Of a stretch of 64,000 nucleotides of DNA, positions 9,476 through 55,649 are shown in pieces. The stretch covers positions 14,180,227-14,244,226 of the forward strand of contig OZ024856.1 in assembly GCA_964017155.1 (NCBI GenBank), given 5' to 3'. The stretch is from Oasisia sp. SBJ-2009 (taxonomy: Eukaryota; Annelida; Polychaeta; Sabellida; Siboglinidae). The stretch's first letter is position 1, and each line of letters opens with the position of its first letter. Under the pieces are notes generated by a model that was not told the DNA's origin, searched no databases, and was given only the letters and a program-made list of their open reading frames with translations. The translations under genes and the position numbers were made by a program.

Positions 9476-10187
9476 ATGTTAATGTGCAGCGCAAGGACAA
9501 TGCATTTATGGTATAAATACAACGAGTTGTTCGTTAACATGTATATAACCTCTCTACAAAGTTATTTGTCGCAAATTAACACGAGGCAAACAACTTTTGA
9601 GGCATGTTTTGATAGCAAGCGTAAATCACGTGACTGTAGTGCGCCATAATTAGAACCAAGCTTAATTAATTATTTGAATAAAAAAAATTATGATGCATTT
9701 CATATCACAAGGGGTACCCGAAGAGGGGGTGGTGTTGCTCTATACACAAACAAAACAAAAAATTATCAGGCGCACTGACAGAAAGTAAATCGTTTGTAGT
9801 AGAAAATATTCTTGAATGTGTTACTGTAGAATTAACCATAAAGAACCACACAAATGTTGTAGTTAATTGTATTTACAGAACACCCGGATCACCGATAGAT
9901 ACATTTTGTGAAAACTTAGAACTTAACTTAAGTGATGTTAAATCTATTAAAACAATATTTGTGTGTGGTGACTTTAACATAGATTTATTAAAACATGAGA
10001 CCCATAAAAATACTAAACAGTGTCTAGACACAATGCATAGTTTAGGTCTTTACCCGCTAATTGATAAGCCTACCAGGATCACAGATAGCTCAATGAATTA
10101 CGCTTCAACCTAACTAGTGGTATCATGTTCAATGATATAATGTAAAAGAATATCAATTTATCAGAAATATGAATGAGGATAAAATAG

Positions 10188-11727: not shown

Positions 11728-11777
<50 letters not shown>

Positions 11778-11849
11778 GCATACATATATGTGTATATAAA
11801 TTGGTCCTCCCCCCCCCCCCCCACTTTTAAAACCGGATCGACGCCCCTG
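10188..11849. mobile_element. hAT-like non-autonomous element, dimeric, 8-bp TSD
   Basis: The left end is CACGGACGCCGATC. The right end read inward is CAGGGGCGTCGATC. An 8-bp target duplication TAAAATAG flanks it (10180-10187, 11850-11857), and removing element plus one copy restores the LINE reading frame. C-rich tracts lie next to both ends. Internally the terminal-like head recurs at about 10904 (GCATGGACGTCGATCAG), and bodies 10680-10905 and 11155-11395 are paralogous, so the element is a head-to-tail dimer. It also holds AT/GT microsatellites at 11620-11775. Confidence 0.85.
10343..10671. mobile_element. Long-TIR MITE, copy C
   Basis: This is a shorter relative of copy A (TTATCGCAAATTAACACGAGG core; right TIR ending AAAAATGTA) inside the hAT element. 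It is flanked by AGCCGC on both sides (10337-10342, 10672-10677), so it jumped in independently rather than being carried by the locus duplication. Confidence 0.75.
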
Positions 11850-14565
11850 TAAAATAGCATCATTTTCCAATGAACTAAGTCAACAAACCTGGGAAACTGT
11901 GCTAAAAACTGATGATGTAAATCAAGCGTATGACTATTTTCTACACATATTTATGGATATATTTAACACACCCTGTCCAGTAATAAAAATAGTTTTGAAA
12001 ATAAGAAAAAAAAGGTTCACCAAAGGTTTAAAACGTGCTTGTACAAAGAAAAATAAGTTATATAAAGCATTCATTGTAATGAGATCTGCAGAAGCCGAAA
12101 ACAAATACAAAACATAAAAATAAAATTAACATCTATATTAAGAATTACAGAAAAAAAACTATTATAGCTCGATGTTAGAAAAACAAAAAGCAAATGTTAA
12201 AGAGACCTGGAAAATACTAAATGAAGTAATTAACAAACGTAAAAATAATCCAACATATCCAAAATACTTTATAAAAAAAAAAAAATGTCAAAGAAAGAAG
12301 ATATTGCTAATGGATTTAATAATTTCTTTACAAATGTTGGCCCCACCTTAGCAAAACATATCCCCTTACCTAAAGACGATACAACTAGTTATGATTACTT
12401 AGAAGAAAACATTGAACATGCTGTGTTGCTAAGTCCTGTTGGTGACCTAGATATTATTAGAACTGTTCAAAATTGTAAAAATAAAAGATCAACTGATTTC
12501 AGTGACATTAGTATGAACTTGGTTAAGAAAGTAATTTCTAAAATAGTTAAGCCATTTGCTCATATATGTTTAATGTTTTTCCAAACAAAATGAAAATAGC
12601 TAAAGTTATTCCGCGATATAAGTCTGGAGAAAAAAGTTTTTACAAATTACAGGCCAATATCTTTATTAACACAATTCTCAAAAATTCTGGAGAAACTATA
12701 TAACAACAGATTGGACATGTTCATTAATAAATGTAACATACTCAGTCCAAGTCAGTATGAGTTTAGATCTAGCATGTCAACAACTGAGGCTCTTTTAGAT
12801 TTGGTATAAGAAATTACAACTTTATTAGAAAAAAATAAGTATACTGTTAGAGTATTTATTGACCTAAAGAAGGCTTTTGATACTTGATCATGATCATGAT
12901 ATACTGTATAAAAAAACAGAATTTCTATGGTTTGCGTGGTGTCACACAGGAATGGATTCAGAGTTATTTAGAAAATAGAAAGCAGTTTGTCAGTTTTAAT
13001 AACTGTCATTCAGAAATACTAAATGTATCGTGTGGTGTCCCTCAGGGTTCCATTTTGGGACCAAAAGTATTTATCATGTATATTAATGGCATGTAAAGTC
13101 TCACAATTGTTCAAGTATATTTTATTTGCTGATGATACAAATCTATTATGTTGTTATAGAGACTTAAATGAACTTGTTCGGATGATAAATGGTGGTTTAG
13201 AACAACTGCAGGCATGGTTTTCTGTTAATGGATTGTCTCTTAATATATCAAAAACTAATTACATGATTTTTGGTAATCGCAGAATAACTGCAGATATTTG
13301 TGTTAGAATAAATAAAGAAAAAATCAATAGAGTAAATTGCACACAATTGTTAGGTGTAGTAATTGATGACAAATTAAACTGGAATAGTCACATTTTATCA
13401 ATAAGATCTAAACTGTCAAAATGTTGTGCTATTATGTATAGAGCCAGTTCCTTGATTAACAAACATGGTATGCATAGTTTGTACTATTCTCTTTTCATGC
13501 CTTATATTATATATTGTGCTGAAGTATGGGGTAACACATATGCTACAAATATTCATTGTTTAGTTGTATTACAGAAAAGGGTTATGAGATTAATTTGTGG
13601 TGCCAAAAGACTTGATCACACAAACGTACTCTTTCACAATGTACATATTCTTAAAATACCAGATCTTGTAAAACTAAAAATTGCTATCATTATGTTTAAG
13701 GCATATCGTTATATATTACCAATGAATGTACAAAAATTATTCAGAATACATGAATCACGATATTCATCCAGGCATAAATGTAAGTTCAAGCAAATCTATG
13801 TACGTACATATGTGTATTTCTGTTACTGGGGTTAAACTTTGGAACACCCTTGATAATTCATTGATTAGTTGTAAAACAATTCATCATGTCAAAAGGTGTT
13901 ATACAGATAGACTGTTGAATAGTTATGTGTTAGAGTCCTAGACTATTTTGCCAATATAAATTAGATAACTAAATTAAACATTCAGATTGTTTATTGTTAT
14001 AAAGGTTTTTTCTTCTTCAATAAATATCACAATGTCTTTTTCTCGATTAAATGTCGTATGGTTATACATGTAAATAATGTTGTCGCACCTTCTATTGCAC
14101 TGTTCAGATGCTTTATGTATGTAATTAAGCAATTATAAGGGTAAACATGATAAGTATTGTACTTCTTTTACCCTTTTTTCAACAAATGGTATTGTATGCA
14201 CTGTCTGTATAATGTAGTAATTGTTGTTGTTGAAAATTAATTTCAATTCAATTCAATAATCCGCGACAGTGATTTAAACAAACGTAAGATGTTATTGTAT
14301 TCAACGACATTTTAAGCAACACTTCACAGTAATCATCACAGGAGAGTTAACGAACAGCCCGTGGAATTTATACCAAAAATGCTTTGTCGTTTCGCTGCAC
14401 ATTGATTTTTTTATCGCGCATGCGCAGAAACGTCAATCGGAAAGTTTATAAAGATCGTAAAAATGTACTTATTATTGGGCATAACGCGCACCCGCTGCAC
14501 GTAAGGAAATGTCAACGTTAGACAGATGAATATTGTTAGCAACGTGGCACCTGCTATAGTTTCAG

Positions 14566-24718: not shown

Positions 24719-26440
24719 GGTATCAGAGAGCGTAAAGGGGAGAGATGTCACTCAGCCGGTGGCATTTTGGATTTTGAACTGGTGGCGCACCAAGCGGCTG
24801 GGTGTCATGCGAGTTCATAAGCAAACCGGCGTGCTTTCATTCATTTGGTTAAAAAGCGATCGACTGCTCGTACGTTGACTTGGGGGGTGTGTGTGTGGTG
24901 GGGGGGGTGCGGGTGGACATGTAAAGAAAAAAAAAAATTATGCGCCAAATATATTGATTTTCAAAAATATATAATATTTTATGGTCATTTCACGGCTACA
25001 TTATGATAGGATTCATGAAATCTCAGATATGATCATTATGCCTGGTTCTTTCTTTACCATGTCCCCAGACAACCTCTCCCTGTCAGCTGAAGATATGCTG
25101 CAGTCAATAATTATGTCCATAGCCTGAAAGTGCATTTTAAAATTTGTTGAATTTTCCGGTTTTATATATACATCTTGATACATGTACTGCCTATGGTCAC
25201 ACAACTGGTCCGTTGTAAATTTGAAAGGATGTATGTACAGTAAATTATGATGTAGCCCTAAGTGTCTTTTTCTACTACTTTCAATATTTGTATTCTAGTC
25301 ATATTTACTTCTTGTTTTGGTACACATGATGTTTAACATCTCACCTAAACATGCTAAACCTACACCCGCCCAAATTGCCAACACCATCATATATGCCTCC
25401 CTGTGGTTTATGTGTTCCTCTATTTTAATACTTTGTCATACAGTTGTGTGTGCGTTAAATTATGTGTCTATTCCTAGTCATATTCATAACTTGTTTTCAT
25501 GATGTTTAAATTGTATTTTTTTACACTGTCTGAAGGCTTCACCTCAACAGTTTTATTACTGAACGTGGATTCCTTAATAAATCAATCAATCAATCAATAT
25601 AATTCAGTTCAGACAGTTACTGTCCAATCCCAATTTTTAGAAATATTTCATTCCTATTCTGAAACAGATCAAAAACATGAACAAAAAAGACATGGGTACA
25701 ATAATACATTTATTGTAGGCATTAATAGCATGGGTACAGATATTAAAGTTAGTATACACTTCAAATGAGCCCAAAAACATGCCAATTTGGTTTGATTTGC
25801 CAACATTTGCAGAAAGTATTCAACATCATCTTTCATTTATCAAATACATATCATTTTGTAATCAATTTTTTTTTTTTTTTGGACACACACGTCTACAAAT
25901 AAATAATGTCTGCACATGTCCATCTATGTTTAGAATTAATGTAATTTCGCAGATGAAAGATGCATATGATACATACAACCTGTGCTGTATATTGATACAT
26001 GATAGTCATGCGCCACACAAAAAGTAAAAGAATATGTGCCAGTATTTAAATGTCAATACATTGTTAGCTACATGTACATTTGTTCACAATATTCATTATA
26101 GTTAGTCTTCAGTTTCATTGAATTGGCATAGTTTGCAATTCATATCGTGTGACTGCAAAATATAGCCAAAATGTTGGTTGCCATTTACAATATTTAGTGT
26201 CCAAATGACATACAGAATTATTTCGGTGTTCTCACAAAAACGTTACAATTATTGAAACATACTAATGTTATCAGTTGATTATGTAAAACACCTGTATAAC
26301 CCCTCGTATACCTTAGTCCAGCCAGGGCTATATGTATACTGTATGGTGATGTACTATATATCTAGTCAACTGTCTCAAGCAATTTACAACAATACAATCA
26401 TCTGGTCTGACATGAATATAATCAAGAACATTGCTTTTAC
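24719..26440. other. Mostly non-coding, with a LINE/SINE 3' tail
   Basis: ACCAAGCGGCTGGGT at 24789-24803 is repeated inverted at 27175-27189. A LINE-like 3' end with TTAATAAATCAATCAATC tail lies at about 25530-25600. I see no exon of the THAP gene here, though its 3' part should lie on this side. Confidence 0.5.
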
Positions 26441-26702
26441 CAGGACTGAAGTATCTTGCTCAACTACATGGTCAGAAGATGAAGTTCTGTCCTTAGGGGG
26501 CTTGCGTTCTTTCTGGCGATCTGATTGATTGCAGCTGAATAACGTGGGAACTGCATCCCATACCAGCTTGTCACGGCTGTTGGCATTCATAAACTGTGAC
26601 TCGGTGAAGTGTTTAGCGCACATCCGGCAGTTGTTATAGAGATACCCGCAGTATCTTTTCAACAGATCTTCCCTTCTAGAGTTTATAACCCATCGCTTAC
26701 TC
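26441..26702 (-). CDS. THAP protein, exon 2
   Basis: This exon continues the THAP finger begun at 27156: SKRWVINSRREDLL, then CRMCAKHFTESQF, WDAVPTLF, then a charged tail QSDRQKERKPPKDR. It supplies the last Cys and His of the C2CH zinc site (MCAKH) and the AVPTLF motif that closes every THAP domain. The acceptor CTTCTTATTTCAG joins exon 1 in phase 2, giving a contiguous KDKDR-SKRW. A GTAAAA donor after SVL (26440) is plausible. Whether a transposase-like body follows is unknown. Confidence 0.85.
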
Positions 26703-27046
26703 CTGAAATAAGAAGTGCAAAAACATTGAATTACAGCCAGCATTACACATTTATTGCTAATATTTTGCCAAGGCACCTATTCTATTATCTAGAATTTAGA
26801 TACACCATGTACATGAACAAGGACAAGTAGGCCAGTCTGGACACATGATACAGTGTCAGTGATATTTACTCTTAGTTCAGCCCACCACAAGATCCGCTGG
26901 GACATACTGTTAATTTAGTGTCATTGATTGACATCCAGTCTGACACTGACTGGGGGGGGGGGGGGACGTGTCGAGGCGTTGCATTTATGCATTTATGTGT
27001 GTTATGCATGGTATTTCTTTTTAGTTTGTATTGATTTAATGCCTAC
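26703..27046 (-). other. Intron of the THAP gene
   Basis: A GT-AG intron of 344 bases. It contains a pure G run at 26951-26964. Confidence 0.8.
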
Positions 27047-27156
27047 CTGTCTTTATCTTTCGGGAATCTGAAGAATGAAAGCTCTGCGTTGACGCTTTTG
27101 TTGTTGCTGCAGCCAAAGGCTGAGCAAAACGAACCGCCGTGCCTGGCGTACGCCAT
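27047..27156 (-). CDS. THAP protein, exon 1 (start)
   Basis: The ATG at 27156 (AACATGG) opens MAYARHGGSFCSAFGCSNNK, SVNAELSFFRFPKDKD. The first two zinc ligands (C-x4-C) and the FFRFPKD strand are diagnostic of the THAP N-terminus, which is normally within ten residues of the protein start, as here. It ends at AAAGACAG|GTAGGC, phase 2. THAP domains bind DNA sequence-specifically in animal transcription factors and in P-element-type transposases. With a MADF-like exon 2.3 kb away on the same strand, a transposon origin is possible. Confidence 0.85.
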
Positions 27157-27174
27157 GTTGATCTGACTTTTGCA

Positions 27175-27189
27175 ACCCAGCCGCTTGGT
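27175..27189. repeat. Right copy of a 15-bp inverted repeat
   Basis: ACCCAGCCGCTTGGT here is the exact reverse complement of 24789-24803. The pair brackets the THAP exons, and the right copy is 19 bases upstream of the THAP ATG. Confidence 0.6.
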
Positions 27190-27365
27190 TCGCTGCGGTC
27201 TATGTTTTAAAAATGGCGTCCAATGGGAAACAGCGCATGTGATTGGTCTTCCTTTAATTGTCTTTGATGGTATCAGCGTCTCAAGTGTCACGTGAGTAAG
27301 CCTTTTGCTGTCATTGAACAAATTCCATGCAACATGTTGCACGAAATAGAACCTTCCCTATCCAA

Positions 27366-32713: not shown

Positions 32714-33259
32714 ATAAGATGCTTTAATTCACTGTCACCTTCATTTACTCGTATGCCGTCAATGACGCTACGTATCATCCAACAATCCATCTCGAAAACT
32801 AACATCATTTCTAGCGTCATTTCTAGCGTCATACATGAAGCAGTTATCACGCGTCAAATTCATTTGTTGAAGCGAATGCAATAACGTTGGCTTACTGCGT
32901 TCCCTTTATGTAGGGATAGTTCGCCCAAATGTGCTGTCGTATCATTATGTATTGTAGCTGACAAATTATACGAAGGAACGAATCCAACTACATACTATTA
33001 ATCTACCATGAGTGTGGACAAAGACATTGACGTACGACACCATTTCTCAGTATACTCCGATGAAGGATCACATTTTCAGCACAGGTAGCGATGCATTCAT
33101 TTCACACCAAAATTGTGATTACGTGAACATTAACGATATGTTGCGTTTGATTGTGTTCAGGTCACCGCCGTGAGTAGACATCGCCGCTACACCGGGCGGA
33201 CGAACGTCTGAGAACCCCACTGCTGGAAAGGTCGTGTCGCGTAGTTGCCGACGACATCA
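32714..33259 (+). promoter_or_regulatory. Upstream region of the first type II membrane protein gene
   Basis: An acceptor-like TTGATTGTGTTCAG|G ends at 33160, which suggests a non-coding 5' exon further left and a leader of about 100 nt. The 16-bp tandem TTTCTAGCGTCA lies at 32810-32835. Confidence 0.45.
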
Positions 33260-35035
33260 ATGACAATGAGGTCGGCGACAAAGAGGACCTTGTTCGTCGG
33301 TGTGACGGCCGCATTCATCCTCGCCGTCATCATCTTCCAGTTCAACGGCCGACGCCTGCGAGCGCCGAAGCGACACGTGGCGGGCCCACGTGACCAGAGG
33401 TACCGGAACAAGCAAGGGTTCGTGCCGGTCCCGCGCAACTTCGGCAAGGGCCCGTCCTACAGGGTGAGCCAACAGCGAGGGTTCCAGGACCGCGTCCGCC
33501 AGGATAGGTTGGGCGATAATGCGCCCAATAAACCCGCATTATCGCCCAACCTGCCTGGACAGTTCGGCAGGCGCGGTGACAGTGCGGCTAGTACGACGCC
33601 GACAGTGCCGTCGGGTCGTGGACGCGACTGGTGGAAGGACAATGCGCTGAAGAAATACCCGGCCAATCAGGCGCCGCTTGGACGCGGGGTGAACGCGTCA
33701 CTTCCGGTGAAACCTCCGCCCGGTGTGGGACAATATAACGTGCCAAGAAATAACAGCAACAACAGCGGCAGACGCAATCAACAATCGTCTGTCGGGAAAA
33801 CGCCACAGTTGTCTAACACGGACAACAACAAAGGACAGTTCCCTAACAAGGAGGGCGAATGGAAACGGCCGGGGAACAATTTCGGGGTCAACAAAGCGAC
33901 CGGAAGCAGAGCGGGGGACAAGGGCGAAGTCAAGCGACAGAACGGCAGTCGGGTGTATGGTGGGCGACAGGGAATGAGGCCCACTTCCGGTTCGTTGTCG
34001 CCCGCTGGACGCGAGGGGATGCGACGCCAGAACGAGGGGCGCGATACGTGGACGGAGAAGGGGATGAAAACGACCCGTCCCACGACCAGAATACAAGACG
34101 GATATCGGTCTCAGGGTGAACTGCGCGGGAAACCACGCCCCGAGGCGGAGCAGGGTCGGCGCCAAGATGGAGAACGGCGGTTCGAACAAAAAGACAAATC
34201 CCGCGTTTGGGAACAGCGTCAGGTTGGTCAACGGGGCGGACCAGGTGGGGAGGCTCAAGCTCGTGGACGTGGCTCGCCGAACTGGTCTCGGAATCAAGAT
34301 TCTCCCCGCGCTGGCCGACAAGGGCAGTTTGGTCAACAGGGTGGTGCGACAGGCACGGGTGGTATGGCGCAAGGTCGCGACAACAACAGAGGGTTAAATG
34401 TAGGCGCGCGTGGTAATCGACCGGGTGAGGGAGACCAGAGGAGAGACCGCGATCAGAGGGTAGGTTGGCAACAGACGAAGGAAGGACAGAAACGGACGTT
34501 TCAAGGGGACGGACAGAAGCAGGCGTTTCAGAGGGAAGGACAGAAACAGGGATTTCAGAGGGAAGGACAGAAACAGGGGTTTCAGACGGAAGGACAGAAA
34601 CAGGGGTTTCAGAGGGAAGGACAGAAACAGGGGTTTCAGAGGGAAGGACAGAAACAGACTTTTCAAGGGAAAGTACCGAAACGAACATTTCAAGGGGAAG
34701 GACCGAAACAGACGTCCCAGAGGGAAGGACGCGAACAGACGACGCGGATGGCAAGACGCGAGCCCAATGGAACTTTCCGTGAGAAACAGGGAGTGATGAC
34801 CAACGACGTTATTGTAAGGAGAAATGACGAGCGAGAAGGTAGACGAACCTCAGGCGACAACAGAGTTATCCTGAAAACCGACGGAGACAAACAGGCAGCG
34901 GGCAACATCAAGGGTCAAATCGGCAGCCAGAAGACAAGAGACAGTTTGTTGTTTAGAAAGACTTCAGACACTGATAGGCGCGATCAGCCGGTTTCGGATC
35001 AGAAACGTAAATGGCCTAAGTATACAAACGTATGA
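33260..35035 (+). CDS. Unrecognised type II membrane / secreted low-complexity protein 1
   Basis: 591 residues from the ATG at 33260 (a second ATG at 33266 has a better -3 A). A basic MTMRSATKRT head is followed by one membrane segment (LFVGVTAAFILAVIIF, about residues 11-26) and a basic stem RRLRAPKRH. Then come 550 hydrophilic residues rich in Gly, Gln, Arg, Asn and Lys, with no cysteine-rich or catalytic domain visible. Residues 408-497 are ten 9-residue repeats. The layout suits a Golgi or cell-surface type II protein, or an uncleaved or cleaved secretory protein of an extracellular matrix. GC content is far above the surroundings. The frame closes at AAC GTA TGA, which overlaps a donor-like GTATGAG, so a downstream exon is conceivable. 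A poly(A) signal at 35776 argues for an intronless end. No family recognised. Confidence 0.75.
   Translation: MTMRSATKRTLFVGVTAAFILAVIIFQFNGRRLRAPKRHVAGPRDQRYRNKQGFVPVPRNFGKGPSYRVSQQRGFQDRVRQDRLGDNAPNKPALSPNLPGQFGRRGDSAASTTPTVPSGRGRDWWKDNALKKYPANQAPLGRGVNASLPVKPPPGVGQYNVPRNNSNNSGRRNQQSSVGKTPQLSNTDNNKGQFPNKEGEWKRPGNNFGVNKATGSRAGDKGEVKRQNGSRVYGGRQGMRPTSGSLSPAGREGMRRQNEGRDTWTEKGMKTTRPTTRIQDGYRSQGELRGKPRPEAEQGRRQDGERRFEQKDKSRVWEQRQVGQRGGPGGEAQARGRGSPNWSRNQDSPRAGRQGQFGQQGGATGTGGMAQGRDNNRGLNVGARGNRPGEGDQRRDRDQRVGWQQTKEGQKRTFQGDGQKQAFQREGQKQGFQREGQKQGFQTEGQKQGFQREGQKQGFQREGQKQTFQGKVPKRTFQGEGPKQTSQREGREQTTRMARREPNGTFREKQGVMTNDVIVRRNDEREGRRTSGDNRVILKTDGDKQAAGNIKGQIGSQKTRDSLLFRKTSDTDRRDQPVSDQKRKWPKYTNV
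34481..34750 (+). repeat. Ten 27-bp in-frame repeats (EGQKQGFQR type)
   Basis: Ten units of exactly 27 bases, translating as EGQKRTFQG, DGQKQAFQR, EGQKQGFQR and so on to EGREQTTRM. The central five are nearly identical and the edges diverge, a pattern of unequal crossing-over or slippage. The length is kept in multiples of three, consistent with coding constraint. Confidence 0.95.
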
Positions 35036-37598: not shown

Positions 37599-38462
37599 CT
37601 ACTGCCGCATTCTGACGACGTTGTTGGCTGGGTGTTCACGGAGTCTGTCGCCACCCGCGCCATGTGGCCTTGGCTTCACCCCAACCACCCTCGCTAACAC
37701 CGAACCGCCCATCTTCGGCGCCTGCGTCGTGGTTCTCGACGCGGAGCGATTTCGAAAGCGAGGCGCCAAGACGCCATTTTGTTTGAGACCATGCGGCGCG
37801 TTGATTGGCAGATGAGGCGACGCGACATTTCCCTGTGTCCTGTTTGACGACGAATGTTGATACGGCTCGGTGTGGTTAGTCCGGGCGTGGCCACGTCTGC
37901 CGGCTTGAGCAGATAGTTTACCGGGGTCGCCTTTCGCGACGAGTCGCCAGGAATTGTCCTGGTGCCTGGGTACAGAAACGTGCGGAGGTTTTACACCCCG
38001 CTCTCCGAGCGGAGGAACGTGATTGTTGGCGGGAAGGGGCGCCAGAACGGGGTGATCTCTTCCGTGGCCCTCGTGTCGACCCTTCTTTTTGTGACGCACA
38101 TGCGCGGTGGCGTTACCGGAATGTGGCTGTTGCTGTACCCCTTGGCCTGGATGGACTTGGTGTCGTTGTTTCTCTGAACCTGGATGCAGCTGGAGTTGCT
38201 TCTCAATTGTTGCGTGCACCTGGTGTTGTTGCCTCTCTGGTCCCGGATGTAGCGGGTGTTGTTTTTCGCCGGGCCCTTTGACTTGGTTTTTGCGGTGCTT
38301 GTGCTTGCTATGGTGTTTCTTGGGCAATATCCCCCGGCCGGCCCGGGCGATGCTCTGGCGATATCTGACCTTGCCCCAGTGGCTGTAGTGGAGCACAAAC
38401 ACGGCACACACCATCACGATCAGCATCGCCGTGTACACGCGCATCTTGGCGTGCTTGCGCAT
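37599..38462 (-). CDS. Unrecognised type II membrane / secreted low-complexity protein 2
   Basis: 287 residues. The head MRKHAKMRVYT is followed by a membrane segment (AMLIVMVCAVFVLHY, about residues 12-27), a basic stem (GKVRYRQSIARAGR), then a His/Lys/Gln-rich chain. The chain contains KKHHSKHKHRKNQ and two 21-residue repeats starting EKQHPLHPG and EKQLQLHPG. It ends in an Arg/Asn/Pro-rich tail. An in-frame TGA nine codons upstream fixes the start. A CRE palindrome TGACGTCA overlaps the ATG, and a 20-codon in-frame upstream ORF precedes it after an acceptor TTGTTTCAG at 38551. The stop lies inside a donor-like GTAGGAG. Architecture, composition bias and convergent position pair it with the gene at 33260. 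Function unknown; His-rich stretches could bind metal. Confidence 0.7.
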   Translation of the reverse strand: MRKHAKMRVYTAMLIVMVCAVFVLHYSHWGKVRYRQSIARAGRGILPKKHHSKHKHRKNQVKGPGEKQHPLHPGPERQQHQVHATIEKQLQLHPGSEKQRHQVHPGQGVQQQPHSGNATAHVRHKKKGRHEGHGRDHPVLAPLPANNHVPPLGERGVKPPHVSVPRHQDNSWRLVAKGDPGKLSAQAGRRGHARTNHTEPYQHSSSNRTQGNVASPHLPINAPHGLKQNGVLAPRFRNRSASRTTTQAPKMGGSVLARVVGVKPRPHGAGGDRLREHPANNVVRMRQ

Positions 38463-40818
38463 GACGTCACTTCCGCTCTCCCGCTCCGATCACTGGTTTG
38501 TCCGGCGCGCGTGTTGGGACTTTGCCGTGATCTTCTGCTGATCCCGCGTCATCGTCTGAAACAAGGCAACGACATCGATTTCTTTATTTACCAATCAACA
38601 AGTGAGCATGTGTGGCAACGCCGAAGAAATTGTCAACAAGTATTATAATTAGAGTCCTACTACTGTGTGCGAAGCGTTCGGTTGACTCGTAACTTGACAC
38701 GTTCTGTGTGACAGCGTCTACCTTGCAAACTACCGCAGGACGAATCAAGTGACCTCGTTCAGTGTGCTGGCCATGCATCGGCGCAGTTGACACTGTGCGG
38801 CGTGTCAACAAAACATCGCAATGTATTAAACACTCTACTCCGAGGACGCCTTGACGTATGGGCGACACCTACCTGCGTAATGAAACGCAATGCAACACGG
38901 AGACAAGAGAAATCAATAAAGCACTGGGCGAGTTGACATCAAGTCCAGGCACCTCATAACAGTTATAATATATGACGATAGAATTTGTTTGTTTACATTT
39001 TCCGACAAACCAGCAATAAATATAGATGAAAATGGGAGGATATATGTTCGTTCGAGTGTCCTCATTAAAAAAAGTGTGACACTGAAACGCACTTTAGCGC
39101 TTCTATTGTTGATGTGGGTTTCAGTTTGTTTGATGTTATCTACCTAGTCTAGTCGTCCATCTTATTAGACACGTATCATCAGATTCCGTGCACTTTCCCT
39201 TGCGCCAAATAATACTTTCCTATATGAACCCTCCTGCAAGAGGCCAACATACTTTAAACTGCGGTTCGTGACGCGTGCCAATTAGTCAGCGTTATTTATG
39301 CTTATGCTTGAAAGTATTGCAAACACGTTATGCGTCAGTGTTTACGTTAAATTATGGATAGGTTTATATCCGAAAACGTGGCTTGATTAGTATCTTAGGA
39401 GAAGAAAACAATATCATTGAGTAATTCGTGTTGCATTCAATATGCAAACTGTGACGTTATGCCACAGATAATAAACTGTTTTCACGGAACCGGACGATAA
39501 AAAAGCTGAAGCCAAAAACCTATTGACGGATGTAATTTACAAAAATAGGCACTATCTCGATGAGACGAAGCCAATAGTCTAACAATATATACACGATACT
39601 TCCGATGTCGTTGAACTTATGATAGAAGCTATACACAGAAGCGTCCAAGAGTCGAAGTTCTATAACTGTAAGCCGATTATCTATTTGTGAACGTAATAAA
39701 TCATGGGGAACGAACGGCACGGTCTTTGAACAAAGCATGGTTCACGACGAACAGTATTAGATGAGTTTAAATGGGGCTGATCTGAACTTAGAACATCAGA
39801 ATAATTTAGTTGATCAAAATTACTTTATATTACATACAATGATCAAATGTATGGTCATGGAGACTCTTTAAGACATCACTCGTGCTCCTACCAGGAGAGC
39901 CACCCTATTGTTTCAATAATTTTAATACAAATTAATTACAATATATAATTAATAATTGTATTAAATATGATTTTATAAGTGATAACCATTTCTGACGGTG
40001 CTTAACACCAACTAACTAACCAAGTACATAATAACGTATACATGACACTAATGTATAATAAAACTTACATTTATTTTAGTTATACTTACCTAAATTAATT
40101 TATAAACAATGATCTCAATTAATTGTAATTAATAGTATAATAACGTATGTGATATTAAGACAAAAACAAATATTTAACCATAACAATGTCTTAAAATGTT
40201 AACGGAGTCTTATATTACAAAACAGTATAATATAAACATGTTATCAGCGTTTCGAGACATATTAAAGAGGACACCTTGGTCCATCTTCGTGAGCCCGGAG
40301 TGTGTCGTCTCAGGGTACCTACGCATGCCCAGATGAGGGCACTTGGTCCCCACCCTCACAAAAAAACGATCGAAATTGTACCATAAGGTGGTCTAATTTC
40401 ACTCTAAAAACGTTGGGTCACAATAATAGTGTGTGCATCTTGGCGCAAACAAGATAATTGTTATTACTGCGGTTGTTTATAACATTTGTACGCTGGGAAG
40501 GGCTACGGTGGTCGGTGATAAGTGCTACCTATACAGCAGGATCGTAACACTCACGAACGTGCTTGGATTACGATTTACGAGTGGTTGGAATATGAGCCTA
40601 CACATAAATCACAAATACAATACTTTCTACGGGATTACTAGACTATAACGTGACTAACGTGATGGATGGCGTGACACAAAAACAAAATACACGTGGATGT
40701 TTTGCGCTGAGAAAGACCAAGGCAAACATTAGACGATGTCCAGCTAAACCTTGTGCACGAAACGAGAAGATGTAACTCAGCGTCCTCACACAGGGATTTT
40801 ACGCAGAAAATTATTTAG

Positions 40819-45052: not shown

Positions 45053-46714
45053 TGCGAAGATGTGAAAGCAGCGGTGAAATCGCTCAAGAAGGGGAAGTCA
45101 GCAGGAGCGGACAACGTCCCAGCGGAGCTGGTGCAGGCAGGGGGAGAAGACATGATAAGCGCCCTACTGACTATCTGCAACAAGATCTGGCAGACATGGA
45201 AGTGGCCCACGCCGTGGACCCAATCTCTCACCATCACCCTCTTAAAGAAAGGCAACCAGAACTATCGTACCATCAGCCTCATCAGCCACCCGAGCAAAGT
45301 TATGCTGAAGATCTTGCAGAACTGACTGAAGCTGCAAGCGGAAATGATCATCGCTGAGGAACAAGCAGGCTTCAGACCAGGGGTCAGTTTCATAGCGGCT
45401 ACTTACGACGTCGTAGCGGGCGATAACCCGTCGTAAGCCTAAGACGTCGTAAAGTTACACTAGTTGCGTTTCATGAGTCTGCTCCATAGTTGCACTTAGC
45501 TGCACCATGTATTTAGTAGGCGTAACTTTACGCTGGTTGAAATATTTACGGTATGCTCCCGAAGTTGAAAATGTACGGTATGCTCCCGACACGCCCACTC
45601 TCAACATTATTATTTTTAATGTATACACTGGATATCGTTTACATTCATCATAGCTTCCCATTTGCTATACGAACGACAAAGGTACAGCTAGAAAGAAAAA
45701 AGGATGTTCAGACACAGCACAAATACAGGGATTCCCCACCGTAACGTGAGGGGGTCAATGCTACGGCGACTTAGTGGCGCGAATGCTAAATTGGTCTCAT
45801 GAAACCGGCCGTACGCTGCATTGTCTATTCGCTGTTAGCTACGACCAGTAGACCGCGTAATTTCGCGTAAAGTTACACGGCTTCGTGAAACTGGGCCCAA
45901 ATCTTTAACCATAGGATACTGTGCGAGAAGTACCTTCAACACCAACAAGACCTCTACCACGTTTTCGTGGACTTCAAGAAGGCGTTCGACAGAGTATGGC
46001 ATGAAGCACTATGGGCCACTATGAGTATAAGGCAGAACAATGTCAACGCCAACATGATCAGAATGATACAGAACCTCTCTGACAAGCCCACCAGCGCAGT
46101 CTACCTTAAAGCACAGGGGACTGGTTCAGAACCACAGTCGGTGTAAGACAAGGCTGTCTGCTCTCTCCCCCCACCCTCTTCAACATCTTCTTGAAGAGAA
46201 TTATGGCTGACGCACTGAATTACCATGAAGGGACAGTCAGTATTGGCGACAGGACAATTACGAACTTGCGTTTTGCCGACGACATAGACGGGCTGGCAGG
46301 AAGGGAAGAGGAACTAGCTAATTTGGTGGAGCGCCTTGACAAGACTTCTACAGCCTTCGGCATGCAGATCAATGCAGAGAAGACCAAACTGATGACCAAC
46401 AACACCAATGGCATCAGCACTGACATCGGGGTCAACGGCGAGAAACTATATTGCGTAAACAGCTTCAAATACATGGGAGCAATCATCGCAGACGAAAGAT
46501 CCAAACTTGAAATTGTCGCCAGGATCGCCCACACCACAGCAGCACTCACAAAATTCAAAACCATCTGGAATAACAGGAAAATACCGCTAAGCTCAAAGAT
46601 CAGATTGATGCGCTCCCTGGTCATGTCCATATTCCTATACGCCTGTGACACTAACACAGAAAGAAGGATACAGACCATGGAGATGAGATACCCCAGAAAG
46701 CTCCTCGGCATCAC
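45053..46714 (+). pseudogene. LINE reverse transcriptase (inverted half)
   Basis: The fingers and palm begin EDVKAAVKSLKKGKSAGADN, VPAELVQAGGEDMISA, NYRTISLISHPSKVMLKI, EEQAGFRPG. After a nested MITE the frame resumes with LYHVFVDFKKAFDRVWHEA, then VGVRQGCLLSP and LRFADDIDGLAG, followed by the thumb to LLGIT. The catalytic FADD is intact, but frameshifts near 45330 and 46140 and the MITE break the ORF. A shortened NYRTISL segment and loss of the bases at the MITE site are further damage. Confidence 0.85.
45381..45898. mobile_element. MITE nested in the LINE (GGGYCAGTTTCA ends)
   Basis: Left end GGGTCAGTTTCATAGCGGC. Right end read inward GGGCCCAGTTTCACGAAGCC. The inner arms share CGTAAAGTTACAC-type motifs. 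A 16-bp direct repeat TACGGTATGCTCCCGA occurs at about 45551 and 45579. About 19 bases of LINE sequence (the RSTTE codons) are missing at the site. Confidence 0.7.
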
Positions 46715-46726
46715 TAATAAGAACCT

Positions 46727-48624
46727 AACATACACCTAACATGAAATTCGCTTAAATTGTCTCGAAAACAAATTATCTCTTTATAGTAGACCTCGTGCAA
46801 GGCAAACGTTATGTAGCAAAGCGCAATATGCATCACGGAAGACAAACTGCACTCTGCTTGCAAGATATTAGCGTGCCGAGCAAACAAGGACACCTGGACC
46901 GTTTGTTTGAGCACGAAAACACTACATGTTCTTCGTCTCCGTACCTTGCATACTGGAATATCTCGAAATATTAAATTCCTCATCACAGAATGCTCAATAT
47001 GTCGATACAAAGGTACTGACACACACATGCTCAGACCATGGGATATTCGGATACTTAAATATTACATCAGGCAAATATTTATTTCTTACATTGCCTCCCA
47101 GCGGGCAGCTATCGGTAGTGTCGACGATGTATGGGACAGGCAGTGTGTCGATAGTATCAGGCCGTCAACAACAGAACGTCGTATGTACACAACAAAAAGT
47201 GTGATGCAACGACTTCCCAAAATAGCTATCCTGACATTGGATACAGATGTGATTGTGTTTCCACGACGTTGGGATTGATGAGCTGTGTGTTAATGTTCGC
47301 GTTGTTTTTTACTTTCGCAATCCACACTGTTGAAAACAACCTAGGTGTGCTGTAATTTAGAGCAATAGTGCTGTATCGTGTGATAAGGCGCTGTGACGCT
47401 GTCTCCTATTTCATTGGCCGGGGGGCGGGGGGGGGGGGACAAGTAGGCATGGACGGCATGTTCACCTATCACGTCTTTTCGTTACACTCTCATCATACCC
47501 TGGATGCTTCGATTTACGTACCTATTCTATACGAAATCGAAAGGTTTATCATCGACATGCACAGTAGGACGTGTGCACTTACGAAGGTACATTAGGCAAT
47601 GAGACAGCTTTTCCATAGGATCACGGCCATCAGAAGAGCTATGTAGTATGTACCAGGCCGGTTGTGTGTCGCCAGAAGCTCTTGTGTCAGCTCCTCGCCT
47701 GCACGCTCGCTGGACATTGAAGTGATCAACGAACACAAACTTGAAACCATTCAGAACTGAACTACCAGAGACACTAGCGTCATGCTATGAGTCACACGTC
47801 TGTGCAATGCAATGTGTGTATGCGTGTTTAGTGTGTGCGTGTATAATGAAAGGTGTATGTGAACGTATAAATGTCGGCCGTCTAATCTATACAACCGAAC
47901 TGTGTGACTGAAGTGGAGCATGTCGACGACCATCCACGTTTGACAATACGGCGTCAACCCGATATTAATTTGATATACGTTACACTATATTTTATCGATA
48001 TCCGTGGCATATGATTTTACATCCATTTATGCAAACAGGATGACACTGGTAAACGTGAATGAACAGAAATGTGTAGCATTGTGTATGTCGCCAATCTAGA
48101 ATTTCAATATGGCGGTCATCGGAGGATACAACACATGGCAGACATGAATTCATTGACACCGAAAACTACGGGTTAGGCGCAAAAACAGTCTGTGTTGTTT
48201 GAAACACTTAGCTAATTGTTTCTGTAGCGGCCATCTTGATTGATTTCTTAACGACAATTGTCTGCAATTTCTAAAAACAATATGACAGCTAGATATCATA
48301 TGTTGATGCATGGCGATGGATACCTTGTTTATATGGATATCATAAAAGAAGTGCACATTGCTTAGACGCTGCACAAATATATGTAGATGCACAAATCTGT
48401 ATGGACAGACTATAGTAACGGACTAACGGTACACAAGTGTAACGGTAGCAGGCGCGAATTGGCCGGTCGGCCGGCACGAGGCACAGTGTCGCTACCTGGA
48501 GAAGAAAGTGAAACTAAATCAAATTTATGTTCTGGAACCCATAATTCTACTCCAGCGGGGCTTGAAAATGTCATGCAAGGCCAACCTACGCAAATGTTCA
48601 CACGACAGGCAAATACGTCTTTTC

Positions 48625-48689
<65 letters not shown>

Positions 48690-48949
48690 TATTAAACCAG
48701 TCTGAATTATCTATAATTATAAGGAAATAAACAAACAAAATACAATAGCGTGACTCATATTTATGTTGAACAAAACTGCTTGGTGAGCTTTCAGGTGAAG
48801 ACCAAGATCTAAGATCTGCTACAAGTACACATCTGTCAGCTGATGACATATATGACAATAACAAACATTAATTTACATTCACACATATGTACATCTAGTA
48901 ATAAAATACAAGTTGTCTCTCCGTCTCTGTCTCTGTCGCAGTGTTTTTT
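46727..48949. other. Intergenic
   Basis: A G-quadruplex-prone run (two G tracts of 6 and 13) is at 47418-47439. ATATGGCGGTC at 48110 and GCGGCCATCTTG at 48226 resemble YY1 sites. (TA)n lies at 48636-48685. TTTATT at about 48688 is a candidate AP4S1 poly(A) signal on the minus strand. No other gene is seen. Confidence 0.5.
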
Positions 48950-51900
48950 TTATCTTCGAGAGACTTGGTCGAGAAGTTGAACGGGTGCAAGGATCCGGAC
49001 CTTGCTACTTTCTATGATCCTACCATTGAGGATCATCTCATCGAGGATCATGTGGACACGATCTAGATTAAACATGATCTTATGCTCAGTCAAGGATACA
49101 AGGATATTGTTAATGATTCTAATGTACTCAGTGCTTTCCAGTTGATGTATTTTGTACATGACATCTTGTAGATAGAATATGACAGGTTAGTTTGATATAA
49201 TAACATTTAGCTAACGCGTTTCCTCCAAAACAATAAATTCTACATGACAGTAATAGTAATTCAATGATTTTCACAAGGCTATACAACTTAACAACCTACT
49301 GTGTATTTTGTAAGAAATTAACTTAATTCGGAGCATAACTTTGTGAAACGTACAACGTTTCAACCCTTCATCTACAGGTCTTGGTCACGTACTGGTGTCA
49401 CGTGTGTTGGCTCAGGTTTCGTCAGGACAATTGTGTTATAGATGGCGGGTGGTATCCCTGGTCTCTGTTCATGGTAGGCGCCAAGAAATGTGCCAAAACC
49501 TGAGCCAACACATATGACACCAGTATGTGATCAAAACCTATAGCTGTTGGGTCAAAACTGTATACATTTCACAAAGTTATGCTCCAAAGGAAATTAATTT
49601 CTTACAAAATAGACAAATCTTGGAGCCATGAAAAATATACTCCATAACCTATTGTGTATCTGAATCTTGCAATTTAGTTTTACTGATTGGTAGTAGTAGT
49701 AGATTTGTTCTCATTATTATTACTTGTATACAGGGTTGGAAAAAAATCATGATTTTTTCGAATAAATCGAATAAATCGGATTTGTTCGATTAAATCAGAT
49801 TTTTTCAATTAAATCGATTTATTTGATTTTTTCAACATTCTTGACAATCATAAGAAATAATATGTAATTCGGAAAATAAATAAAAGTGGAATATCATAAT
49901 ATACCCAATAGGCTGAACATTTCATTCTTAGCATTTCTAAAGAATTAAAGCAAAGTTGTTATGTACAAATTTAAACTTTATTTTAAAATACATACAGTTA
50001 AATCAACTGGTAGTAGCATGCAACGTAAGTATAAATTTAAGATAATCTGAAAAAATCGAAAAAATCAATGTCTTGATTTTTTCAAGTTGATTAAATCAAT
50101 GATTTAAACGATGATTTAATCAATTTGATTAAATCAATGCCAACCCTGCTTGTTTAGTGTACTAGGTAAAAGGATACATCCAGTTCACACTGAAATATTA
50201 AAGAACATAGATTAGATATAATCATACTAAAGTCAAACACATGCATGCATAAATGCAACTCACACAGACAATGACATTCTGAAAGACAGCAGCATGCAAT
50301 CTGCTCCATAGTAAAATATATACAATCATCAAAAAGCTATGAATATCACAAACATTTCTTTTTTATTATGTTTATGGACATAGACTAGGCAACAAAGTTA
50401 AATATTTCCACCTTCCTTTGAATACTGCACCTGAGAAATATGTGCAAATTTTAGTAAGCTAACAATTTCTCAGGTACACACTAATAACAACGGATGAGGC
50501 GTATATAAAGCAACTATTTGTTGACAACAACCTATGCACAAGAACACATCATTCATACACATTCATATACATATGTAATTATGCATAACAGACCATAAAC
50601 ACACACATCTCACTTCTTTAGGCAAGTGGGTTATAACTTATACATATTCGTGTTTTTCATATCATATGTACTGGTGCATGTACTTTACAGTGCTCAACAT
50701 CGTAAAACATTGCATATGGAAACCACTCACCACTTTTTCAAAGTATTTATCAAACGTCTCCACGATGTTGTGTATGAATTCCAGAACTGCCAATTCATTC
50801 TATAAATAAAAGCAAGTTTAAAAGACAAAAAACATATACATGTGTGTACTGAACATCTGAACATGTCTATACATTTCCATTGCATCTTTCTGAAGAGTTC
50901 AAAATATTAACATTATTGTTCAGATACTTGGAGATCAATTATGCGAATATTCTTACATATATCTGAAAATGGATGTGGACTAAGAAAATCATCTGCTTAT
51001 TTATTTAGGTAGCATTCTGTCATATGTCAAAATGCTTTTAAAATAGCTACTAGTAGTTGTTTGACGGTGATGCCCCATTAAATATTACAATATACCAAGT
51101 GACAAGGTTATCATCAGAAAATAAAGCTTTTACTACTATTACTACTAGTTGTCTGCTGAATTGATTTTTGTTTTGAACTAAATTGTACACTTACCTCATC
51201 ATCATCCACAGCTAGAATGAAACACATGTTTCCATATGTTCTGAAGACGATTTTAAATGTTCTGTAGTCAAAGAATGAACACTGTAACAAGAGCAGTGAC
51301 ACCTTGCAGGTAAACATGTATACCCTGTACATATGTTGTGAAACATGTATTATATGCAGACATGAAAATATAGTCGGAAAAATTACAGAGTTATTATTTT
51401 GGTAGTTGTATGAATATTAGAAAACCTGTTAAATTCAACTGCATCTGATACTTTTTCATTCTTCACCATAACTATGTGGCTGTGATAAACTATTTACACA
51501 GGATGACAGGAACTCATCAAACATGACAGAAGAAGCTGATACATTTTACTAATTTATTGATCATCGTCTGAGAAGCAGCCAAGACAGAGAGGAATGTCAA
51601 ATTCATGATCGGTGAATTATGACATACTGAAAGGACAGAACACAATAAGTGATAGAGCCCTCCCCCTGCAAGAACACTGAAAATATCCAGGGTATAGTAT
51701 TAATTACTAGTAATAAGTACATACCAGACTAACAAGTCTTATTACAGCTGCATATTTAAACTGTATTAGCAGGATGCGTTTATAAATTAAATATTAGACA
51801 GATTAGGTAATCACCTCTTTATCCGATACCGTGAGACATTTCTTTATGACTTCAGTTTCCTGGTCACGCACCGACTCGTCTCTGCCATTAGGCAAGCTGT

Positions 51901-51961
51901 CAAAATATTTTAGAATTCGTGGGTGGCCTTGTTTGTTGACAATCAGCAGAAATTTTATCAT
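48950..51961 (-). CDS. AP4S1: AP-4 adaptor complex subunit sigma-1, four coding exons
   Basis: Exons (minus): 51961-51815 (49 codons, MIKFLLIVNKQGHPRILKYF ... ETEVIKKCL), 51281-51195 (29, CSFFDYRTFKIVFRTYG ... DDDE), 50799-50731 (23, NELAVLEFIHNIVETFDKYF), 49084-48950 (44, HKIMFNLDRVHMILDEMILN, ILAPVQLLDQVSRR). All introns are phase 0, donors GTGATT, GTAAGT and GTGAGT. The total of 145 residues equals the usual sigma-4 length. Sigma-4 is the small subunit of the AP-4 heterotetramer, which sorts cargo such as ATG9 at the trans-Golgi without clathrin. The acceptor of exon 4 (TTGACTGAG) is weak and the exon starts two residues shorter than the vertebrate protein, so that border is the least certain. 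An ATG at 52000 would add 13 residues; homology favours MIKF. Confidence 0.93.
49300..49615. mobile_element. Long-TIR foldback MITE in AP4S1 intron 3
   Basis: Arms of about 120 bases are inverted copies: ATTTTGTAAGAAATTAA, GGAGCATAACTTTGTGAAA, ACTGGTGTCA, GTGTTGGCTCAGGTTT on the left, and the same motifs reverse-complemented to 49610. No ORF. Confidence 0.88.
49731..50148. mobile_element. hAT-like MITE rich in GATTTAAT motifs, AP4S1 intron 3
   Basis: Ends CAGGGTTGG and CCAACCCTG, flanked by CTTGTATA (49723-49730) and CTTGTTTA (50149-50156), an 8-bp duplication with one mismatch as expected for hAT. Inside both ends are dense AATCGATT / GATTTAATC palindromic repeats. Confidence 0.85.
50149..51814. 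other. AP4S1 introns 3 (part), 2 and 1
   Basis: Apart from the two small AP4S1 exons, no other feature is visible here. Confidence 0.7.
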
Positions 51962-52389
51962 AGTGGCTTTTGATGCTTTGTCATTTCCCCCAATATACAT
52001 TACTTATAGACATGTTAGAATGACTGCTGCCTTTCAGGAACATATTAAAACAAATGCTTCATTTAATCTTGTACGTGTACAAAACAACTTTATTGACGCT
52101 GCATTATTCTGCAGGTGCCCGGAAAATACACTGGAAATGTAAATCTCCCTTCAATATTAAAGAGCTCTAAGCCTCTATGAAACATAAAAATATGTAAATA
52201 TCAAATTATTTACATACGAGTTTCAAAATGTTAAAACTACGTACACATTGTTGCATTTATGCAAAGACACTTAAAAGAATTAACTACATCGTTGGGAATG
52301 TAAAAATGTAATGACGTCAAATAACGTCGCAGATACATGCGCCGCCTTTCGGAAATTTCGTAAACGACTGCCATGAATAGAAAATCGTG
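51962..52389. promoter_or_regulatory. Bidirectional AP4S1-striatin promoter
   Basis: Only 428 bases separate the two divergent start codons, so both promoters must overlap or lie in this interval. No TATA box is placed convincingly. TGACGTCA-like ATGACGTCAAATAACGTCGC is at 52311-52330, and the GC content rises towards the striatin start. Promoters of this sort are usually TATA-less and shared. Confidence 0.7.
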
Positions 52390-52593
52390 ATGGAGGAACT
52401 TTCTGTATCACAGAACGGTGGACAGTATAGGTCAAACATTGGAGGTATGAGTATTGGAGGAAATAGACAACAGGATGAACTTGGAAATCGCCCACAGTAT
52501 TCTATGCCAGGGATTCTGCACTTTTTACAAACAGAATGGGCGCGTTTCGAGATGGAACGTTCGCAGTGGGACGTTGAGAGGGCAGAATTACAG
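52390..52593 (+). CDS. STRN3: Striatin family protein, first coding exon
   Basis: 68 codons: MEELSVSQNGGQYRSNIGG, then QYSMPGILHFLQTEWARFEM, ERSQWDVERAELQ. The block from QYSMPGI to ERAELQ is the striatin N-terminal caveolin-binding / early coiled-coil motif, nearly unchanged from vertebrate STRN and STRN3. Striatins scaffold the STRIPAK complex (PP2A with GCKIII kinases). The donor CAG|GTAAATT follows in phase 0, exactly where vertebrate exon 1 ends. An in-frame TAG at 52378 fixes the start. The next exon (AQIAFLQGER motif) is not in the window, so intron 1 exceeds 11.4 kb. The symbol follows the vertebrate paralog beside AP4S1; most invertebrates have a single striatin. Confidence 0.93.
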
Positions 52594-52756: not shown

Positions 52757-52790
52757 GGCCGCCATTTTGGTTTCCAATATGGCAGCCGCT
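52757..52790 (+). promoter_or_regulatory. STRN3: YY1-type sites in striatin intron 1
   Basis: GCCGCCATTTTGG (52758-52770) matches the YY1 consensus, and CAATATGGCAGCCG 6 bases later is a near match on the other strand. YY1 sites just downstream of a transcription start are common in broadly expressed genes. Confidence 0.45.
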
Positions 52791-55649
52791 GTGGTCGCTT
52801 ATCTGACTGTGGGTAGCGAAGCTAATTTTTATGGCCTGTGTAAAATATATGCATGGGGAAATAAGCTTTTTACAATCAGGAACTATTCATGGGTGGCGTT
52901 ATACTTTACACACATAAAACAGGATAATATTTGACGGAAACGTTCATCACTTTGACAAAAAAATTGGCACCGGACACTGGCTGACAGTGGCAGAGCCGTG
53001 ATAGTGACACTGACAGCTACTGAAACATACCACTTCCCAATTACTATAGTCTATGCCTGTAACATTTCCATTGGTATAGTATAGATAGGTAGTTCAGATA
53101 CTTTAATCAATATGTTCTAGCATAAAACAAACAAGGACTTAACCTTAACGTTGCTTTAAGTTAACACATTGAACTTGGACAGATTAGTGTGTAATTTACT
53201 GCAAAACCTAAAATTACTGTTCTGTGTGCAGGTTTTATCGAATTAAGGTGTCATACCTGATTATAACTCTTACTGGCCACTATTGTAGAATCTTGAATGG
53301 TACATGCTTTTTATAATTAAGGGGTAGAACTACCCGCTAGTCCACTAGTCCGTATACTAGTAAGGATAAGGACATAACATACTACATTAAATGAATAATA
53401 AATTACCAAATGTCATGTTTGTTACTACAGGAACTATAAACACATGATAACCAAATAATTGTGGTTATTTTCAATTTAGTCAATAGCGGAAATATGGTCA
53501 TAGGATTGACAGGAATAAAACTAATTTTTTGGGCTAGGAAAAAGTTACAGGAAATAAGGTCACAAAATAATTTTGTTGAAACAGTGGATCAGCACATTAA
53601 AATGGAAATTGAATTTTGACTCACTGACATGTAGCATAATGAAGCATGCAGAAATAAGATAAACAATTAACTCAAAATATTTCAATGCATCAACCCATGT
53701 TTAGGTGCCAATACAGGGAAGGTGTTACAAACTGATTGAGTAGCTAGGAAGAACATAAAACCACAGTGTGGTTACTAGGTAGTTCTGGCTGGGTAAAATA
53801 AAATTTATATTTTATTTTACAACATTTATATAAATGATTATTGATGTCACATTGTGGTTATAATCTTCAAGTTTTGTCAGTCTTCACTGGTTTTATGTTT
53901 GTAATTGGTAATCTATGGACCCTAACTGGTTGCTGTTTGGAGGTATCCTGGCTGCTATCCCTAATTGCTTAGCATGTGATACTGGGAAAGTGTGATTGTT
54001 ATCTTCGAATTTTAGTAGTTCTCTGAAAGTCCCCAGCCAGCACTCATTCACACAAGGCAGTAGACAATTCACTTCCCATTGATCAGTTTCATCCACTGAT
54101 TAATTGCTTGGTAATGTTTGATCAGCAGCTTCATTGTCCAACTTTTCTTGATCATTAAACCCATTGCCTGCACAGCAATATTCCAATTGTCTGTAACATA
54201 TCCTTCGCAGCATCACAAAAATATCAGATACTCAATTCCTTTTCATTTAATTCAAATCTTTCAATTCCAATTCTATTCAATAAAATTCAATTCACTTTGT
54301 TCCAAGTCTTTCAATTCCAATTCCCGCTCCAATTCCGGAATTGAATTGGAAATGAATTTATCAATTCCAAATCCGTTTTAATTGACCCCAGCACTGGAAG
54401 CAGTGGGAACAAGTTCAAAAGCATATGTTTATCAACAAAAGCTTTTATGTAACGTCCAAGGCATAGCTATCTAGAGTAACGACGACATTGGTGTGGATCC
54501 TGTCGCTGCCAGATGTTATAAATTTGCCGCAAGGTGTGAATTAATTTTAGTCAGAAAGAAATGGAAGGCCGCACGAGTGTGGGATTCATGTGCGAAACGG
54601 GATTTTTCTACTGCAAAATGATGTGTTTCGATGAAAATGCAGCTGCACCGTAGACGACAGTGACAGTGTTTCACAAGAAATCCACAAGGGGTCGTCTTCA
54701 TATGCTCAACATATTTTGACTATTCGTTTTACATGTTAGGATAGCAACAATAATAAGGTCGAACACGAAATTCGATGACAAATCTTATTTTGTTACCACT
54801 CGGCTATTACTACAAAATCCAAAGCGTTATCTTGGCTAATTCACTAGGGGGGTGTCCACCGTACTTCTCCGGCTGTCACCAGTAGCAACACTGTGCGGAG
54901 TTACATGTGGAGAACTTGCAACTCATAAATTAGGTGGGACTAGGTTCGTTTGATAACGCAAGTCCATGGATTCGACTGCCACAGATTATGTTTAATTGTT
55001 GTGTAGGGAGTGACAACTGATGGAAACTATTATCTAGAACAATGATGAATAATTCGATTGTTGAAACCAGTGGCCCTTCGGGCCAGTAAAATGTGAAAAC
55101 TGGTGTCCCGAACTGGCCCGACTCCCTCAAAACACGCATCAGGCCATTGGGCCAGCGCAATTGTCGACCCCTGTCTGCTATCAATCAATATCAATGAAAT
55201 CTGGTATCGAACCAGTGACAGATTGTGAAGATTGAGTTCACACTGGTGAATGGGGCTGTGATTAATCTCAAACTGCGTTGTAAGACTGTTTCAGTTGCAG
55301 CTTGGTCAGTTAGCCAGCAACAGGTGCATTGATGTTCTTAATAGTGTTCACAAATAAAACAAGTTTTCTTTAAGCAGATAATTCTCAAGATGAACAGCTT
55401 AAAAATGTTAGTTGAAAGTTACGGCTTAAAATACGATTAAACAGTTTTGTAACTGTAACTGAGGCAGGATACTTTCTGCCAACAGTTTTCAGCCAGTTGA
55501 TAAAGGCCTTGTGTCAACTATGTGAATGGTCACTTGTGCATAAATAAATCAGACACATTGTTTTTTTTATTTTTACATCGGATGATTCATAAACTGTCAT
55601 TGAGTGAATGTCGTGAAACTTTATAGCCATTCCAAAAATAGCCATGCAT
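52791..55649. other. Striatin intron 1, left part
   Basis: A degenerate AATTCC-rich stretch lies at 54235-54375, with a perfect palindrome CAATTCCGGAATTG at about 54340. GGCCCTTCGGGCC and CCATTGGGCC palindromes occur at 55074-55155. No exon is seen. Confidence 0.55.

Follow-up and report, generated by a model that had tools for sequence, protein, structure and literature searches.

A 12-nucleotide exon encoding a conserved tetrapeptide in a siboglinid annelid AP4S1 gene that stands head to head with striatin

Conserved small microexons have been described in plants, and the same account cites the neural microexons of animals; such exons, of 15 nt or less, are often missed or misannotated (excerpts of PMC8831610). 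The exon that we describe belongs to the same size class, but it lies in AP4S1, and its borders are deduced across animals and read from the DNA in a distant eukaryote. The main text of PMC8831610 contains none of the words adaptor, AP-4 and clathrin, and our literature search found no paper combining AP4S1 and microexon. For human AP4S1, an exon is known to start at c.295, and a splice variant found in SPG52, c.295-3C>A, affects what has been called 'exon 4' (excerpts of PMC4574112 and PMC12110826, the exon name from the latter).

The second feature of this locus also has described counterparts. Ancestral bidirectional promoters and conserved microsyntenic pairs likewise consist of divergent protein-coding neighbours that have been kept together for a long time (excerpts of PMC6292497, citing Irimia et al., 2012). 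Putatively ancestral bidirectional promoters already number in the hundreds, so AP4S1 and striatin would be one more member of this class; unlike the pairs of that account, the present one comes from a lophotrochozoan genome and is known from DNA sequence rather than from transcription starts. STRN and AP4S1 are both absent from the main texts of PMC2871058 and PMC3815023, and in no paper found by our literature search did AP4S1, STRN3 and a bidirectional promoter appear together.

The stretch of DNA analysed here (the window) is 64,000 nt long and corresponds to C3:14180227-14244226 of the Oasisia sp. SBJ-2009 genome, which comprises 764,102,534 bases in 33 contigs. AP4S1 occupies the minus strand from its conserved start codon at 51961 to a stop codon ending at 48950, and the first coding exon of striatin lies on the plus strand at 52390-52593 (68 codons, phase 0, gtaaat donor). 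The first-pass annotation had placed these two genes head to head and had proposed the same striatin exon, and both proposals held. Exactly 428 bases (51962-52389) separate the two start codons, well within the 1 kb that we allow between the starts of a divergent pair on opposite strands, and this interval is the candidate bidirectional promoter. An in-frame ATG occurs 39 nt before the conserved AP4S1 start; if it were used, the distance between starts would be 389.

Against the solved human AP-4 sigma-1, the 145-residue AP4S1 model of the first-pass annotation gave an E value of 8.7e-44, with AP-2 sigma as runner-up at 4.1e-23, and it matched Pfam Clat_adaptor_s at 7.8e-33; being nearer to sigma-4 than to sigma-1, sigma-2 or sigma-3, the product clearly reads as sigma-4. 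A search of the genome with the AP4S1 query recovered the exons of the gene itself, together with weaker sigma relatives on C3, C7 and C10; AP4S1 was found at one locus. The product lies closest to that of the annelid Paralvinella palmiformis (65%; 68% over 137 columns). Striatin exon 1 matched Pfam Striatin at 1.7e-13 and also striatin-3; its best protein matches were from molluscs, and no named annelid occurred among the best 120 of 297. When three striatins were aligned to the window plus a 200 kb flank, the gene could be followed collinearly along the plus strand, from position 52387 as far as 87607, with a second match at position 68699 (C3:14248925). Striatin is therefore about 35 kb long and most of it, including the later exons, lies beyond the window. 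All 11 striatin matches in the genome (E <= 1e-5, best candidates scored) fall inside C3:14232628-14267833, a single locus. Membership in the family is seen in the N-terminal Striatin domain and in matches along whole striatin proteins, for which an N-terminal region followed by WD40 repeats is characteristic.

The AP4S1 gene had been annotated as complete with four exons and 145 residues, and this model could not be upheld. With a 12-nt exon at 50178-50189, there are five coding exons and 147 residues. Exon 1 (51815-51961, 49 codons, opening with MIKF) ends in phase 0 at the donor gag/gtgatt. Exon 2 (51195-51281, CSFFDY...DDDE) is flanked by a ttacag acceptor and a gtaagt donor, and exon 3 (50731-50799, NELAV...FEKV) by ttatag and gtgagt. 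Exon 4 is the microexon, TGTGAACTGGAT, which encodes CELD, has AG/GT flanks and is supported by the family alignment. Exon 5 (48950-49078, IMFNLD...VSRR, stop TAA) follows the acceptor cataag/ATCATG, its start being the ATCATG at 49078; the 145-residue model had opened it 6 nt too early. The four-exon model was rejected, as it placed HK, derived from the intron, where most sigma-4 relatives show CELD or SELD. The sole AATAAA or ATTAAA within 1.5 kb 3' of the stop is an AATAAA at 48688-48693 on the same strand. The last intron also contains an inverted repeat at 49300-49615, with 125-nt arms that are 82% complementary around a 66 nt spacer, and a further stretch at 49813-50137, which is AT-rich, bears smaller inverted repeats and ends about 40 bases from the microexon. 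Both stretches look like small mobile elements.

To locate the microexon, the 1.65-kb intron was scanned for 12-mers that encode [CST]ELD and stand between an AG and a GT. One site emerged, tttaatatttcag/TGTGAACTGGAT/gtatcc at 50189-50178, the immediate context of which also reads ttcag/TGTGAACTGGAT/gtatcc; an AG-[CS]ELD-GT site occurs nowhere else in the window on either strand. With 12 nt, the exon stays under the 15 nt limit for a microexon, and it is phase 0 on both sides. Only with this exon does the [CS]ELD motif follow exon 3, the motif being missing from the 145-residue model. We infer that the exon is spliced into the mature RNA. A normal sigma-4 subunit would require its inclusion, because skipping, which would stay in frame and join V to I, removes a motif conserved throughout the family. 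The same genome offers a control for the isolation of the motif. A sigma-2 gene (L024), whose residues agree with AP-2 sigma, reads straight through CELD within a larger exon, and so does a second gene (L028), which by resemblance we take to be sigma-1. Isolation of the motif is thus not common to these two genes; the sigma relative on C7 gave no readable motif.

A second instance of the exon was found in the DNA of a very different organism. Among prokaryote genome contigs, 84 pattern matches included one relative, and among viral contigs 114 pattern matches included none. The one relative (L030) is a 6,641-base contig filed under a Verrucomicrobiaceae metagenome-assembled genome from a pond. 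Because it bears introns, it is a eukaryotic contaminant. With splicing as read from the DNA, its AP4S1 has exons of 138, 156, 12 and 120 nt and introns of 34, 74 and 32 nt, and the 12-nt exon, TGCGAGCTGGAT, encodes CELD. The borders before CSF, CELD and IMF are identical in position and phase in this gene and in the window (phase 0 at the CELD exon); the window's border before NEL is absent from the contig. The borders of the microexon are therefore conserved as read directly from DNA in this lineage, and in animals as seen through the failures of gene models only. In a weak tree of this single domain (145 columns, arbitrary root), the contig's protein falls in a ten-member group with Anaeramoeba and unnamed sequences (98/94), outside animals, choanoflagellates and Capsaspora, and the window's AP4S1 falls within a six-member set with Paralvinella, Capitella and three unnamed sequences (91/96, not starred). 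In P0029, also one of the ten, V and CELD are separated by an insert of 37 residues that ends in Q, as though the first of the two introns had been retained. Head to head with AP4S1 on the contig is a frame at 1523-2267 on the minus strand; from its resemblance, we take it to read like the RING end of PEX12.

In other animals, the exon can be approached through the way in which gene models fail at it. We classed 92 AP4S1 protein models, a sample that is biased, as the query lacked CELD and ranked models lacking it higher, isoforms were counted apart and many models are from teleosts. In this sample, the tetrapeptide is present in 58 models and missing or replaced in 26; four models read through the donor and four are of other kinds. 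Direct joining of V to the next exon accounts for 15 of the 26 (Paralvinella, Acropora cervicornis, Trichoplax sp. H2 and 12 teleost models), one lacks the V as well, and the remaining 10 carry filler residues. The skipping models by themselves say just that V and I can join. The filler ends in Q in seven of the 10, which is expected if splicing truly uses the CAG before ATC as acceptor; it reads VS, VS and VGIGR in the remaining three. The four read-through models belong to two teleosts (P0074, P0083), a bamboo shark (P0071) and a cuttlefish (P0088). In the first three, the retained piece ends in Q before IMF, and the cuttlefish model displays the donor side only. Taken with one another, these failures make it probable that the same 12-nt exon is present in vertebrates, the cuttlefish, a cnidarian, a placozoan and another annelid. 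They also suggest that several public models of AP4S1 are in error at the CELD position. Genome-based models of Capitella (P0010) and two bivalves (P0064, P0080) contain the motif without trouble. All of a further 98 proteins (among the best 120 of 1805) have the motif as well, 97 by pattern and P0273 on reading, their exon borders not being visible. The models of other kinds comprise a further replaced case (P0082), two short frames starting in the sequence before IMF (P0091, P0092) and one with exon 2 only (P0090). The last is an 85-residue frame on a metagenome contig of 1,911 bases, 93% identical to AP4S1 exon 2 over 21% of the query, and its 5' side resembles the translation of the window's intron; it probably represents a piece of the genome of a closely related animal, captured in a public metagenome.

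Two other readings of the tetrapeptide have to be considered. The CELD match could be due to chance, the four-exon model with HK in place of CELD then being correct. An AG acceptor is indeed present six bases upstream of exon 5 (ctgag/CATAAG), and the donor of the microexon, gtatcc, is weak. Against this, no AG-[CS]ELD-GT site arose in 20,000 first-order Markov introns, and HK fits neither the CELD nor the SELD of relatives. Moreover, the extra K of the 145-residue model is an AAG at the very position of the Q in the seven failed models, and the 12-nt exon recurs in L030. We regard a chance match as highly improbable. The other possibility is that the microexon is alternatively spliced, for example in neural tissue, so that AP-4 exists with and without the tetrapeptide and some CELD-less models are true isoforms. 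One known human isoform lacks the exon (excerpts of PMC4574112), zebrafish models occur with the tetrapeptide (P0026) and without it (P0032), and many animal microexons are regulated (excerpts of PMC8831610). However, the tetrapeptide is retained in sigma-4 outside animals, such as that of Anaeramoeba, and in the sigma-2 and probable sigma-1 genes of this genome it cannot be skipped alone. In addition, the filler in 10 of the 26 models and the intron sequence read into by four others look like errors of prediction. Regulated skipping seems to us rather unlikely.

How old such an exon may be is a matter on which we are evenly divided. It could predate the split between animals and the lineage of L030, and possibly derive from the last eukaryotic ancestor, which would place it among the oldest known constitutive microexons. 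Its phase-0 borders would have stayed identical while sigma-2 and the probable sigma-1 hold the motif in a larger exon, and in animals the gene containing it would have come to be locked head to head with striatin. The microexon is a better find than the gene pair, and its depth is the part that is surprising to a specialist. The human exon that starts at c.295 opens at the same codon as the window's microexon, the first residue of SELD, and c.295-3C>A thus sits directly 5' of it (excerpts of PMC4574112 and PMC12110826). From the vertebrate models, this human exon would be 12 nt long. These comparisons suggest that, across very distant eukaryotes, a 12-nt exon supplies the four-residue motif of a disease gene. 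They also raise the question of how so tiny an exon could be recognised with such reliability over so long a time.

For the gene pair, evidence comes from the interval and from other genomes. The CpG observed/expected ratio of the 428-base interval is 1.21, compared with 0.94 for the window, and lies above 467 of 595 equal stretches, which is not exceptional. A local peak (52200-52399, 12 CpG, observed/expected 1.96) lies on the striatin side, and the AP4S1 side is CpG-poor. The interval contains a full palindromic CRE, TGACGTCA, at 52312-52319, for which 0.006 were expected in shuffles of the interval, with 14 motifs tried; two other copies occur in the window (23956 and 38462). The interval has no TATA match. 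The CpG peak and the CRE fit a start region near striatin, and together with the short distance they would be consistent with a promoter shared by both genes. Two YY1-like motifs, GCCGCCATTTT and ATATGGCAGCC, are found at 52757-52795 on the plus strand, just inside striatin intron 1, by what we take to be the YY1 consensus.

In human and cattle gene lists, COCH, STRN3 and AP4S1 appear in that order (excerpts of PMC4970234 and PMC9602073), which bears out the adjacency of STRN3 and AP4S1 in human claimed by the first-pass annotation. These lists presumably follow chromosome order. The human genes are, we assume, also oppositely oriented. With the same pair head to head in a lophotrochozoan and adjacent in mammals, ancestral linkage is the simplest reading. 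Linkage of bilaterian age is likely on the strength of these two bilaterian lineages, and of the ancient shared promoter that had been proposed for this locus, it is the linkage that carries over; the sharing of a promoter is a suggestion drawn from the interval. No named species was common to the AP4S1 and striatin protein matches listed (92 of 92; best 120 of 297; best 120 of 1805).

It could be asked whether the neighbourhood is a coincidence, either through separate arrivals here and in vertebrates or because the region was never broken, the two genes having separate promoters. Such a reading could draw on the one-sided CpG peak and on the contig of the distant eukaryote, where AP4S1 adjoins other genes and no striatin match exists on the 6.6 kb, so that the linkage is not universal among eukaryotes. 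A striatin family search of the pond assembly found no match, but as the control genomes were equally silent this result carries no information. On the other side, with tens of thousands of genes in play, independent pairing of these two in two distant lineages would be very improbable, and the genes here stand just 428 bases apart in a genome of 764 Mb. Coincidence is thus an explanation that we consider quite unlikely, and with good confidence we favour an intact and probably ancestral divergent pair, together with a five-exon AP4S1 that includes the 12-nt CELD exon. Under this preferred reading, the AP-4 sigma and striatin genes would be transcribed divergently out of a single short promoter region. 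The pair would most likely have been retained as each first exon sits near or inside the promoter of the other gene, and because of this closeness a break would damage both genes. A shared pathway need not be assumed. With this locus, the divergent pairs possibly locked together since early animals gain a lophotrochozoan example, whose interval of 428 bases lends itself to testing.

The window contains no tRNA and no Rfam match at the gathering score. On the AP4S1 side, pieces of a THAP-domain gene lie at 26384-27357 on the minus strand, one frame scoring above the Pfam cut-off (32.2 bits) and its neighbour below it (20.3 bits). Fragments resembling non-LTR retrotransposons are present on the plus strand at 9694-13832 and 45889-46739; a reverse transcriptase match at 46110-46736 (49.9 bits) is above the Pfam cut-off, and the other endonuclease and reverse transcriptase matches are below it. 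Lastly, two long open frames, at 33245-35035 (plus) and 37599-38489 (minus), had no Pfam match at 0.01. Both have a short hydrophobic N-terminal stretch and a repetitive tail, and they may be the opening exons of genes for type II membrane proteins.
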